Source of the DNA: an uncultured Myxococcales bacterium
GTDB taxonomy: Bacteria > Myxococcota_A > UBA9042
Assembly (NCBI GenBank): GCA_903842345.1
Contig: CAIMLR010000027.1
Coordinates: 62,001 to 126,000, forward strand
Direction: 5' to 3'
DNA length: 64,000 bases
Both the position numbers and the translations under genes were made by a program. Under the pieces are notes generated by a model. It was not told the DNA's origin. It worked only from the letters and a program-made list of their open reading frames with translations, and searched no databases. Shown here piece after piece: positions 10,838-16,837 of this stretch. Each line of letters opens with the position of its first letter. The first letter of the stretch is position 1.

Positions 10838-13800
10838 ATGACCGCACGCCGTCTTGCTGTTGGCATCTTGATTTTGGGCTTTGGCTTCTCTGCGTCCGCG
10901 TATGCGGCCGATACCGACGCCGACGGCTTGGATGATGCCTGGGAAGCCGGCTACTTTGGCGATCTCGCGCAGACGGCCAACGGCGACCCGGATGGCGATG
11001 GCTTGTCCAACGCCAATGAGCAGGCGGCGGGTACGGATCCGACGCTGAAGGACACGGACGGCGACGGTCTCTCCGATTTTGCCGAGCTCTTTCCGCAGCC
11101 GGGCAAGTCCAAGACCCAGCCGACGTTGGCGGATACCGATGGCGACTTTCTGTCCGATGGCGATGAGGTGCTTGTCTACAAGACCAATCCGACCCTTGCC
11201 GACACCGATGGCGACAACCTGCCCGACAACCTGGAATTGCAGGTCTCCAAGACCGATCCGCTCAAGGTCGACACGGACGGCGGTTTTGCCGACGACGGCC
11301 AGGAAGTGCTGATCGACCATACCGATCCCAACAAGCCGGACGACGACAAGACCGACAGCGACGGCGACACGCTGACCGATTGGCAGGAAGTCAGCGTCTA
11401 CAAGACGGACCGCTTCAAGACCGACACGGATGGCGACGGCTTGAGCGACGGCGACGAAGTCAACGTGGACAAGACCGATCCGACAAAGAAGGACACGGAC
11501 GGCGATGGCCTGGACGACGGTGCGGAGATCGCGGCGACGACGGACCCGCTGCTGCCCGATACCGATGGCGATGGCCTGAAGGATGGCGAGGAAGTCAACA
11601 CGTGGAAGACGGACCCGCTGCTGACGGACAGCGACTGGGATTCCCTCAGCGATGCCGATGAAATCGCGACGTTCCAGACCAATCCGCTCAAGGCGGATAC
11701 GGATGGCGGCGGCGTGTACGACGCGGTGGAGATCAGCGATGGCTCGAATCCAAATCAGGCGGCGGACGATGCCGGCGCGGATCCGGATGGCGATGGCTTG
11801 TCGACGAATTACGAGTTGAAGGTGAGCAAGACCTCGCCGACGGATGCCGACACCGACGGTGATTTTGCCCCGGACGGCCAGGAAGTGCTGCCGCTGGACA
11901 ATCACCTTGTCACCAATCCGCTGGACGCGGACACGGACGACGATGGGCTGCTGGACGGCAAGGAACTCGGCGTGTTGGTGTTCAAGGTCAAGGACGGCAA
12001 GAACGTGGGGACCACCGTCTTTGGCGGCACCAATCCGCTGATGTTCTCCACGGACGGCGACGCGCTGGGCGACGGCCAGGAGATGGGCGTGACGGCCGCG
12101 CCGCTTTCTGAGAAGGCGACGGACGACACGGCGTCGCCGCCGTTCCTGCCCGATCTGGCGCCGACGGAGACGACCAATCCGCTGCTGGACGACACCGACG
12201 GCGACGGCCTATTGGACAGCGCGGAGGACAAGAACGGCAACGGCAAGTGGGAGCCTGAACTGGGCGAGACGGATCCGGCCAAGGCGGACACCGACGGCGA
12301 TGGCTTGGATGACGGCTGGGAGGTCAAGTACACCGACGATGCCAATGGCGCGGAGGGCAAGCCGCTGAACCCGCTGGACGCGGCGGATGGCCAGGGCGAC
12401 AACGACGGCGATGGCCTCTCGAACCTGACCGAGTACGCGCAGACGTGGCCTGACAAGGACGGCAAGGCCCAGCCAAACCGCACCAATCCGCGCAAGAAAG
12501 ACACCGACGGCGATGGGTCGACGGACAAGGTGGAGGTGCTGGGCGCGTATCAGGCGGCGCAAGCGACGGGCAGCAATCCCACCGAGCCCGACACCGACGG
12601 CGATGGCTTGAAAGACGGCGTGGAGGACAAGAACCACAACGGCTTGACCGACCCGGGCGAGAGCAGCCCGCGCAAGAAGGACAGCGACGGCGACGGGCTG
12701 GGCGACGCGCAGGAGGACAAGAACGGCAACGGCAGCTGGGACAAGGTGCTGAACGAGACCGGCGCGGCCAATCCGGACAGCGACGGCGACGGCTTGAACG
12801 ACGGCGTTGAGGTGCGTTTCTACGGGACCAACCCGCTGCTCACGGACACGGACGGCGACGGCTTGCTGGACGGCTTGGAGACCGGCAAGAAGGGCGACAG
12901 TGATCCCGGCACGACGACGAGCCCGACGAAGCCCGACTCCGATGGCGATGGCTTGAACGATGGCCAGGAGGACTTCAATCACAACGGCAAAATCGACGCG
13001 AAGGAGACCAATCCGCAGAAGGCGGACACGGACAACGACGGCATCAGCGACGGCGTGGAAGCGGGCAAGGCGGGTGACGCGGATCCGACGACGACGACCA
13101 ATCCGCTGAGCAAAGACAGCGATGGCGATGGCCTGAACGACGGCTTTGAGGACAAGAACAAGGACGGCAAACAGGAGTGGAACCCGGCGCTGTTGACCGG
13201 CGAGACCAACGCTGCGAAGGCCGACAGTGATGGCGGTGGCGTGGCCGATGGCAAGGAATTGCTGACGGACCTGACCAACCCGCTGGATCCGAGCGACGAC
13301 GCCAATGGCGACAATGACGGCGATGGCGTCAAGAACAAGACGGAGATCAAGCTGGGGCTGGATCCCAAGAATCCGGATTCGGACGGCGACACGATTTCTG
13401 ATGGCCAGGAGTCCAATGGCGGGCAGGTTGTGGACACGGACGGTGACGGCATTGTGGACGCCAAAGACCTGGACAGCGACGGCGATGGCTTTCCGGATGC
13501 GCAAGAAGCGGGCGACGGCAACTGGAAGACGCCGGCGGTGGATACGGATGGCGATGGCCTGCCCGATTTCCGCGATCTGGACAGCGACGGCGATGGGCTC
13601 AACGACGCCGACGAGCCGCAGTACAAGACCAACCGCTTGAAGGACGACACCGACGGCGATGGGCTGCACGATGGCGCGGAAATCAAAGCGGGAACTTCGC
13701 CGCTGGACAGAGACACGGACGACGACGGTGTGCTGGATGGCGACGAGTCGCTGCTGGATCTGGATGGCGACGGCCTGATCGGCGCGCTGGACCCGGATGC

Positions 13801-16800
13801 CGACAACGACGGGATTCTGGACGGGACGGAGCTCGGCAGGACGCTGGGCTCGATCGGTCCGGACACGAACCTGACCAAGCGCGCGTTTGTCGCCGACGCC
13901 GATCCATCGACGACGACGAATCCGCAAAAAGGCGACACGGATGGCGATGGCCAGCGCGATGGCGCGGAGGACGTGAACCACAATGGCCGGCTGGACGACG
14001 GCGAACGCAATCCGGCCGAGTCGGGCGAGACGCTGCAGTTGGCGGATCAGGACGGCGATGGCGTGCCGGACGCCGAGGAGAAAGTGCTGGGCACATCGGC
14101 GACGGACGCGGACAGCGACGACGACGGCGTGCCGGACGGCGTGGAATGGAACCTGTCCTGCGATGGCGACATGGACGGCGCGAGCAACGCCGCGGATGCC
14201 GATTCAGACAACGACGGCCTGCCCGATGGCCTGGAGCGCGGCGCGGGTGCGCCCGTGTCGGCGACAAACTTGCTGGCGTTCAGCTTTCGGGCGGACGTGG
14301 ATCCGGCGACGACGACATCGCCGTTGCTGGCGGACACCGATGGCGATGGCCAGCGCGACGGTCTGGAGGATCAGAACGCCAACGGGCAGGTCGATCCGGG
14401 CGAGGGCGATCCCAACGCGGCGCTGACGCAGACGATCGTTGTCGATCTGGACGGCGATGGCCTGTGCGATGCGGAAGAGCAGCGCGCGGGCAGCAACCCG
14501 CACGACCGGGACAGCGATGACGACGGCGTGCTGGATGGCGACGAGGCCAACGCGGCGTTTGATTTTGACCACGACGGCCTGCCTGGCGTGCTGGATCCCG
14601 ATTCCGACGACGATGGCCTCGCGGACGGGCTCGAGCGCGGGATTGCCCACGCCGACCCGCAGACGGACGTGGCGCTTGGCCGGTTTCAGACCGATCTGCA
14701 GCCCGCGACGCAGACCTTGCCGTTGGCCGCGGACAGCGACGGCGATGGCCAGCCCGATGGCTGGGAGGATCCGAACCTGAATGGTCGCGTGGACGCTGGC
14801 GAGGGCGATCCGAGTGACGCAGCGGTGCAGTCCAAAGTCGCGGACAGCGATGGCGACGGCCTGTGCGATGCGCTGGAGACGATGATCGGCTCGCGTCTGC
14901 ACGATGCCGACAGCGACGACGACGGTGTGCCCGACGGCCGGGAGTGCAACCCGAGCATGGATCTGGACGGCGACGGGCAGAACGCGCCGGACGATGAAGA
15001 CAGCGACGGCGATGGGCTGTACGACGGCACGGAAGTGGGCCTGACGCTGGCGACGCTGGCGTTTTCCAAGGACACGAACCTCAAGTCGAGCGTGTTTGTG
15101 GCCGACCGCGATCCGACGCACACGACCTGGCCGGCGAACGCCGATACCGATCGCGGTGGCCTGCCAGATGGCGTGGAGGATTTCTCCCACGATGGCCGGA
15201 TTGATTTGGGCGAGACCGATCCGCTGCTGGCGGCGGATGACGGCAACATCGACGGCGATCTGGATGGCGACAGCTTGGACAACAAGACGGAGCTGCTGCT
15301 GGGCACCAATCCGCTCAAGCGCGACAGTGACGGCGATGGCATCCTGGATCCGACGGAAGTTGTCGATCCGATCCATCCGCTGGACACGGACAAGGACGGG
15401 ACGATCGACGCGCTGGACACGGACAGCGACAACGACACGGTGCCGGACGCGTACGAGTCGGGCGTGAAGCCCGATGACACGTCGCTGCAGCAGAAGCTCG
15501 CGGATTCAGACGGCGATGGCCAGCCCGATTGCCGGGACACGGACAGCGACAACGACACGCTGTTGGACGGCGATGAAGTGTTCAAGTACCACACCGACGC
15601 GCGGCTGCCGGACACCGATTTTGGCGGCCTGAGCGACCCGATCGAGGTCCTGCAAACGCACACCAATCCGCTGGATCCGAGCGATGACGCGGAAGTGCTG
15701 GAATTTGGCGGGCGGCTGCGCGGCACGACGCCGCTGTCCTGTCAGGCGACGCCGACGCCGCAGGCCGGGGGAATGGCCGTGCTGCTGCTCGTGGGGCTGG
15801 CGCTGCTGCTCAGGCGGCGCGCGGCGCTGCTGGGGATGCTGCTGTTGCTGGTGGCGCTGCCCGCGACGGCGCTGACGCCGCTCGACGTCACGTCGGGCCG
15901 GCCAAATCTCGACGGCGCGGGCATCCTCGGCGTGGATTCCGCGCTGCAGTTGGACTTGCACGCGCTGTCCGTGGGCGCGCAGGCGCAGTACGCGTGGCGG
16001 CCGCTGGTTGTTGGCACGGAAACGCGCGTGCTGCGCGGGCTTGTCGATCAGCGCTTGCAGGCTGACGCGATGCTGGCCGCTCGGCTGTGGCGCGGGCTGA
16101 CGCTCGGCGTGGCGGTGCCGGTTTCCCTCTGGCAGAGCGGCTCGCAGCCGTCGCTCTACGGGCCGCAGTCGGGGCCGTTGGACAGTTCGACGGCCATTGG
16201 CGACATCGCGCTCGCGCTCAAGTACGTGTTCCTCGCCGAGCGGCAGGAGAAGCTGGGCTTGGCGGTCCTTCTGCCGGTGACGGTTCCCGTCGGCGACCCG
16301 AACCTGTACATGGGGCGGCCGGGCGCGACGGTGACGCCGACGGCGGTCGCGTCGACGGCGCTGGGTCCCTGGCGCGTGGCGGCCAACGTCGGGGTGCGCG
16401 CGCAACGGACGCAGACGCTCTTCAACCTGGTCGACGGTCCGGCGCTGCGTGTGGCAGTTGGCGCAAGCCTCAATGCGTCCGTGGCGCAGGACAGCTGGCT
16501 GGGCAAGTGGGTGCCGGACGGCTGGTGGCTGGACGCGACGCTTGTGCACGAGACGCCGCTGAAGAACGCCTACAAGAATGGCGCAGATGAGCGGCTGGAG
16601 GCGACGCTTGCCGTCGGCTGGCCACTTGGCGAGGACCTGTACGGCAGCATCGGCAGCGGTTTTGGCCTGTGGCCGGGCTTTGGCGTGCCGGCCTACCGCC
16701 CGTTTTTCTCGATTCGCTACGCGCCGCAGGACAAGACGCCCGACGTCGCGCCGCATCAGCCCGTCGCGTTGCCCGCCGCGGCCTCGCCAAGCGATGCGGT

Positions 16801-16837
16801 TGAGCCGGCCGCGGCGATCACGCCCGCTGCGCCGTAA
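10838..16837 (+). CDS. giant TSP3-repeat protein with internal MYXO-CTERM-like segment and C-terminal beta-barrel
   Basis: 1999 residues. A signal peptide (MTARRLAVG to SAYA) precedes about 1600 residues of TSP3 calcium repeats (DTDGDGLxDGxE), interrupted by units such as [13 protein letters not shown] and [13 protein letters not shown]. At Cys 1635 begins a tripartite segment: [12 protein letters not shown], a hydrophobic [13 protein letters not shown] and RRR, the layout of MYXO-CTERM sorting signals, but internal. Six residues later a second signal-like stretch ([12 protein letters not shown]) leads into ~300 residues resembling the N-terminal barrel of myxobacterial OmpA-type proteins ([22 protein letters not shown]), then an Ala/Pro tail. 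No peptidoglycan-binding OmpA domain follows. It may be a fusion of an adhesin and an outer-membrane protein, or an autotransporter-like design. The SD is weak (TGGAGTCCT before ATG). Confidence 0.85.
10905..15715 (+). repeat. TSP3 (DTDGDGLxD) calcium-repeat array, coding
   Basis: Dozens of 12- to 25-residue coding units centred on D-x-D-G-D-G-L/F-x-D. At DNA level they appear as recurring GACACGGATGGCGATGGC-like strings with varied spacers. Known TSP3 repeats bind calcium through the Asp side chains. The array explains the large antisense ORFs seen on the minus strand here. Confidence 0.85.

Follow-up and report, generated by a model that had tools for sequence, protein, structure and literature searches.

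How does one open reading frame come to encode a large surface adhesin with its sorting signal and, immediately behind that signal, an outer-membrane barrel with what looks like an export signal of its own? The question is raised by a frame found in a stretch of 64,000 nucleotides (hereafter the window) from the genome of an uncultured Myxococcales bacterium. Two answers had been offered in an earlier note on this DNA: either two ancestral genes have fused and a protease separates their products after export, or the barrel carries the adhesin outward in the manner of an autotransporter. We argue here that the frame probably encodes a secreted precursor of two proteins, from which two cuts would release a TSP3 adhesin with a lipid anchor and a barrel of the TraB type.

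Organisation of the fused protein

The frame runs from ATG to stop without interruption, encodes 1,999 amino acids and is preceded by a GGAG-type ribosome site immediately 5' of its ATG (Table 1). The union of adhesin, MYXO-CTERM motif, second signal and barrel in this one frame, read previously from the letters, was confirmed, as were Cys1635 and the RRR. By its sequence, the first signal peptide is of the Sec type. It is followed by a strongly acidic calcium-repeat region (Asp and Glu make up about 26% of residues) that contains 51 DxDxD[GN] motifs and matches the Pfam family TSP3_bac (PF18884) in 21 stretches with 187 bits; the first cysteine of the whole protein is residue 1108. Downstream of Cys1635 come a 13-residue hydrophobic run, RRR at 1659-1661, the residues AALLGM and then the barrel-like domain. 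The second signal is short, and in this compact version of the genus the RRR probably doubles as its basic n-region. Two orthologs have TSP3 and OmpA at the position of the C-terminal tail.

Table 1. Position of the fused frame and of its parts in the window.
Feature	Position	Strand	Basis
Fused ORF: TSP3 adhesin, MYXO-CTERM, second signal peptide, barrel	10838..16837	+	single frame in 12 orthologs
First signal peptide, aa 1-23, without lipobox Cys	10838..10906	+	sequence; predicted cleavage position
TSP3-type calcium-repeat region, aa 24-1620	10907..15697	+	PF18884 TSP3_bac and motif count
Internal MYXO-CTERM motif, aa 1634-1661 (Cys1635, hydrophobic helix, RRR)	15737..15820	+	TIGR03901 and TIGR03382 matches
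Cys1635 codon, predicted lipidation and myxosortase cleavage site	15740..15742	+	conserved Cys; role suggested by PMC11980579
Second signal-peptide-like segment, aa 1662-1678, predicted signal peptidase I cut after ATA	15821..15871	+	sequence; rule-based homolog survey
Putative TraB-type outer-membrane beta-barrel, aa 1679-1960, about 12 long strands	15872..16717	+	NF033763, PF13557, AF2, Foldseek
C-terminal Pro/Ala-rich tail, aa 1961-1999	16718..16834	+	OmpA domain absent here

Identification of the protein as CglD was considered and rejected. It scores 598 bits against NF033765 (cut-off 400), but this score is collected from 15 repeat stretches, and its signal peptide contains no lipobox. 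An automatic pipeline would consequently mislabel it as CglD, since the equivalog cut-off is passed by way of the TSP3 repeats. Opposite these repeats (10838-15700, minus strand) lie antisense ORFs of up to 590 amino acids, which are a by-product of the repeated Asp/Gly codons and have no gene-like signs.

The single frame is conserved and both halves are under selection

The adhesin, the Cys/helix/Arg motif, the second signal and the barrel stand together in one frame in twelve orthologs from other genomes. Three of these belong to the same genus, with 81% identity over the aligned segment, and nine to the same family, with 34-53%. Alignment of the 12 revealed neither a stop nor a frameshift, so that the break near position 15,800 that the earlier note had named as a refutation was not found. 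A lost stop or an assembly error joining two genes might be suspected in a genome assembled in 50 contigs, probably metagenomic like its named relatives. However, because these 12 relatives share the single frame, the fusion is no sequencing error, and with a further line of 46 fused relatives (see below) an artefact of this kind is practically ruled out. A scan of genome contigs with an alignment of eight close barrels recovered only seven loci, all of them in uncultured Myxococcales MAGs.

Members of the genus give a dN/dS of about 0.1 for both the TSP3 region and the barrel, indicating that the two halves are both under selection, and of about 0.5 for the junction, termed here the hairpin after the topology predicted for it below. 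The length of the hairpin varies among orthologs by whole codons only. Fast as it evolves, it retains the Cys, the hydrophobic run, the RRR, the second hydrophobic run and a small-residue A-x-A-like end, and this combination of rapid change and preserved character fits segments that get discarded. Cys1635 itself is present in 13 of 13 aligned orthologs, in one of them with a shift of one column.

The barrel could in principle be made from an internal start codon, in which case the continuous frame would have no role in processing. There is an ATG at 15836 in the window's genome, and the barrel gene of some relatives begins at an ATGA overlap. Against this, no ribosome site lies within 16 bases of that ATG, and neither a conserved start codon nor a ribosome site exists in the junction among the four genus members, so that synthesis of the barrel requires read-through translation. 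Moreover, the product of an internal start would be devoid of a basic n-region, and the upstream protein would still lack a terminating stop. We regard this explanation as very unlikely.

Sorting signal and processing machinery

The search of Cys1635 against TIGR03901 that the earlier note had proposed gave a match of 24.8 bits (E = 2.4e-4), above the cut-off, in the genome search, and of 17.9 bits, just below the cut-off of 20, in a whole-protein hmmscan. TIGR03382 scored 16.4 bits at the same site, above its cut-off of 15.85. The profiles thus recognise the Cys, transmembrane helix and Arg cluster of a MYXO-CTERM motif, situated not at the extreme C-terminus but with 338 residues downstream of it; the remaining three sorting-profile matches in the genome are all terminal.

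In Myxococcus xanthus, MYXO-CTERM proteins are cut by myxosortase and exported via the type II system, according to Guo, Haft and Wall (2025; PMC11980579), who also studied TraA in laboratory E. coli in the presence and absence of the myxosortase. The window's genome encodes a protein with a myxosortase core (Mrt_core, 111.4 bits against a cut-off of 100) and GspD (469.7 bits against one of 351), and signal peptide, myxosortase and type II secretion, the combination expected for a myxosortase substrate, therefore occur together in it. The myxosortase-core protein (locus L031:1852-2856 of G000:C2) comes nearest to MrtP (185.5 bits, under the cut-off of 250). As MrtP and the other named subtypes all stay below their equivalog cut-offs, its sequence would possibly represent a further myxosortase subtype.

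Fused, split and stand-alone relatives

Across 53 related genomes, we sorted 102 barrel homologs into classes, assigning fused status by the Cys/helix/Arg rule; a home-made HMM rule was dropped, having missed obvious cases. Barrels fused in frame to an upstream MYXO-CTERM motif account for 46 of the 102, in 29 genomes, and about 50 are stand-alone. Five others lie directly behind a separate, stop-terminated MYXO-CTERM gene, which answers the earlier question whether the two halves also occur as adjacent genes. At three of these five split loci (L197, L049 and L050) stop and start share the four bases ATGA, an overlap of the length published for traA/traB (PMC3325183), and at least L050 and L197 have a ribosome-site-like sequence before the overlapping ATG. 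The fused L056 and L208 and the split L085 and L197 are homologous, with 50-53% identity in the barrel. One automatic assignment to the split class, L210, was discarded as spurious for want of a real sorting motif. Elsewhere, a stand-alone gene for a barrel followed by an OmpA-like part (L076, G012:C87) is 53% identical to the window barrel, and the genome that holds it also holds a fused form (L075).

A second export signal follows internal motifs

An export signal after the Arg cluster, defined by rule as a hydrophobic stretch followed by an A-x-A-like end or a lipobox, was found in 44 of the 46 fused homologs, and the two that fail the rule still show a hydrophobic stretch with an Ala-rich end behind it. 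Upstream control windows of the same proteins satisfied the rule in 146 of 2,250 cases (6.5%), shuffled junctions in 953 of 2,300 (41%): Ala-rich hydrophobic segments in GC-rich genomes resemble signals by chance fairly often.

We also drew an independent sample, 90 of the best-scoring MYXO-CTERM sites in relatives, chosen regardless of barrels. The statement of the earlier note that these motifs lie at extreme C-termini holds for 80 of them, where the protein ends at most 34 residues away, and fails for the other 10, which are internal. An export signal comes immediately after each of the 10 internal sites, and at half of them it includes a lipobox. The internal motif leads into a TraB-type barrel in L080 and into an outer-membrane barrel of the MXAN_2562 family (NF040596, 197 bits) in L087; L097 and L157 look like L087, and these FnIII-like proteins have the same arrangement with a second barrel family. 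In L092, L118, L119, L124 and L130 it is followed by a lipoprotein signal with lipobox. The L118 lipoprotein contains MopE-type metal-binding repeats (PF11617) that resemble the stretch immediately preceding the motif.

Since the junction always opens a new exported protein, whatever its type, which would otherwise be hard to explain, the halves are probably separated. A thinner, phylum-wide sample yielded one internal site among 26 (L178), and here too a signal peptide opens a further protein. Two other candidate internal sites were rejected: L193 is in fact terminal, and L192 is followed only by a 42-residue charged tail.

The barrel resembles TraB rather than an autotransporter domain

The barrel matches the TraB profile NF033763 (exchanger_TraB) with E = 1.7e-6, which assigns it to the TraB-type barrels, and the same profile matches 13 of 14 aligned barrel relatives; the full-length TraB score is 25.6-26.3 bits, far under the cut-off of 700. 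PF13557 is matched with 23.1 bits (cut-off 22), whereas a Pfam search found in the window protein no OmpA peptidoglycan-binding domain of the kind that TraB has. AlphaFold2 predicted about 12 long strands with moderate confidence (pTM 0.65, pLDDT 61.6). Foldseek placed FapF as the best match of this model (E = 3e-10), with a COG4313 channel lower and NalP also among the matches listed. By its profile match the barrel belongs with TraB; it resembles TraB, FapF and COG4313 and not a classical translocator domain.

These results bear on the second reading of the earlier note, outward carriage of the TSP3 region by the barrel, and on the related one of a one-piece protein whose barrel anchors it at the surface. 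The passenger-first, barrel-last order is that of classical autotransporters, FapF exports a polypeptide, and NalP figures in the match list. However, the linker consists of a sorting helix with its Cys, an RRR and a second signal peptide, none of which occurs in classical linkers; the alpha-helical linker and known 12-strand translocator of type V systems are missing, and no autotransporter family of Pfam or NCBIfam matches the window protein. The halves also exist as separate overlapping genes, other fused members end in OmpA or carry a lipoprotein in place of the barrel, and the barrel itself is TraB-like. With this Arg-cluster hairpin, these unfused relatives and a barrel of the TraB/FapF/COG4313 kind, outward carriage by the barrel is not supported and, like a one-piece protein, is unlikely.

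A model of processing by two cuts

From the frame, its motifs and their conservation, the fused and split relatives, the myxosortase-core protein and GspD, all of which were observed, we infer a topology, two cuts, lipidation, localisation and a function. The N-terminal signal peptide would export the TSP3 region by the Sec pathway until the MYXO-CTERM helix acts as a stop-transfer sequence, with the RRR on the cytoplasmic side; the following hydrophobic segment would then restart translocation as a second signal peptide, so that the junction would form a short membrane hairpin. A myxosortase-family protease would cut beside Cys1635, which is probably lipidated, and signal peptidase I after ATA1678. 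Once freed, the adhesin would be held at the surface by its lipid, and the barrel would insert in the outer membrane as its partner, like TraA with TraB. The pair would be a single-ORF counterpart of traA/traB and would probably act in cell-cell or surface adhesion. The proposal that two ancestral genes fused and that their products are separated by proteolysis after export accordingly gains support from the split relatives, the processing signals that have been kept and the encoded myxosortase, cleavage being predicted.

Only one of the two cuts might take place, leaving either the TSP3 region held by the helix after signal peptidase cleavage or the barrel anchored in the inner membrane by the hairpin after myxosortase cleavage. 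The borderline score of the sorting signal would fit this, as would the view in PMC11980579 that a part of the MYXO-CTERM protein left uncut in a myxosortase mutant presumably still arrives at the surface. But the Cys, the helix, the Arg cluster and the A-x-A-like end are all conserved in orthologs, and a myxosortase-core protein is encoded in the genome. A single cut therefore seems unlikely, if slightly less so than a protein left in one piece.

As to how widely the two-cut model applies, we see about even chances that myxobacteria commonly make secreted polyproteins in which a hairpin of sorting signal and second signal peptide is excised from both sides, with loci changing in evolution from one ORF to an operon with a 4-base overlap like that of traA/traB, or back. 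If so, one translation would give a lipid-anchored surface protein together with the barrel or lipoprotein matched to it. Viruses are a familiar source of processed polyproteins with internal export signals; to our knowledge such polyproteins are not familiar among bacterial surface proteins, and searching the literature for secreted polyproteins of bacteria that contain internal signals returned no relevant result. Should both cuts occur, they would provide a simple route to an adhesin and its barrel partner at a 1:1 ratio, partners would be predicted for many MYXO-CTERM proteins, and receptor-barrel pairs like TraA/TraB would appear to be a wide class and not one system. Annotation rules that expect MYXO-CTERM at the C-terminus overlook a sizeable share of sites (10 of the 90 sampled above).

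Relation to known systems

The idea of fusion and processing is not new, since it has already been proposed for MXAN_5598 of M. xanthus (Guo, Haft and Wall, 2025; PMC11980579). This protein is described there as atypical, its MYXO-CTERM lying internally, behind an adhesin region and ahead of an OmpA-bearing barrel, and the authors propose gene fusion and processing of its N-terminal portion and liken it to TraA plus TraB. MXAN_5598 also appears in proteomic data on outer-membrane vesicles of M. xanthus (PMC4158809). It shares with the window protein a large adhesin region, an internal MYXO-CTERM and an outer-membrane barrel in one ORF, but ends in OmpA domains and sits in the division cluster, whereas the window protein has TSP3 repeats and no OmpA. 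The paper calls internal motifs rare and, in the text available, does not describe a second signal peptide, lipoprotein versions or overlapping-gene relatives of fused proteins. New here are the frequency of the arrangement, the second export signal after every internal motif sampled, the lipoprotein variants, the traA/traB-like overlapping split versions and the TraB-type barrel.

TSP3 repeats also link the window protein to the myxobacterial cell-cell cohesion proteins MtsC and MtsD, the former named a MYXO-CTERM protein by NCBIfam. Its match to the MtsD profile (E = 4.8e-33, 114 bits) is repeat-based and far below the cut-off of 800, and we know of no barrel in either protein. FapF and the COG4313 (PF13557) 12-stranded barrels, among the top structural matches of the predicted barrel, have no attached adhesin or sorting signal. 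Internal sorting signals are reportedly processed by the archaeosortase ArtA (Abdul Halim et al., 2017, cited in PMC11980579), a system that resembles ours in that a tripartite sorting signal is functional though not C-terminal, and differs in that system and enzyme are archaeal and the substrate, according to the title, uses the Tat pathway.

TraA/TraB, the kin-recognition pair of outer-membrane exchange, likewise combines a MYXO-CTERM surface receptor with a barrel protein encoded behind it, and has the 4-base overlap (PMC3325183) seen in three split relatives. TraA and TraB are, however, encoded by two genes, TraA has PA14 and Cys-rich repeats in place of TSP3, TraB has OmpA, and the window barrel reaches 26 bits against the TraB cut-off of 700. 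The same genome encodes another fused protein (L059, G000:C44:48500-56487, minus strand), which is at least 2,601 amino acids long. It comprises EGF-like Cys repeats, TSP3-like repeats, an internal MYXO-CTERM, a second signal peptide and a TraB-related barrel, and by its sequence looks like TraA plus TraB combined in one ORF.
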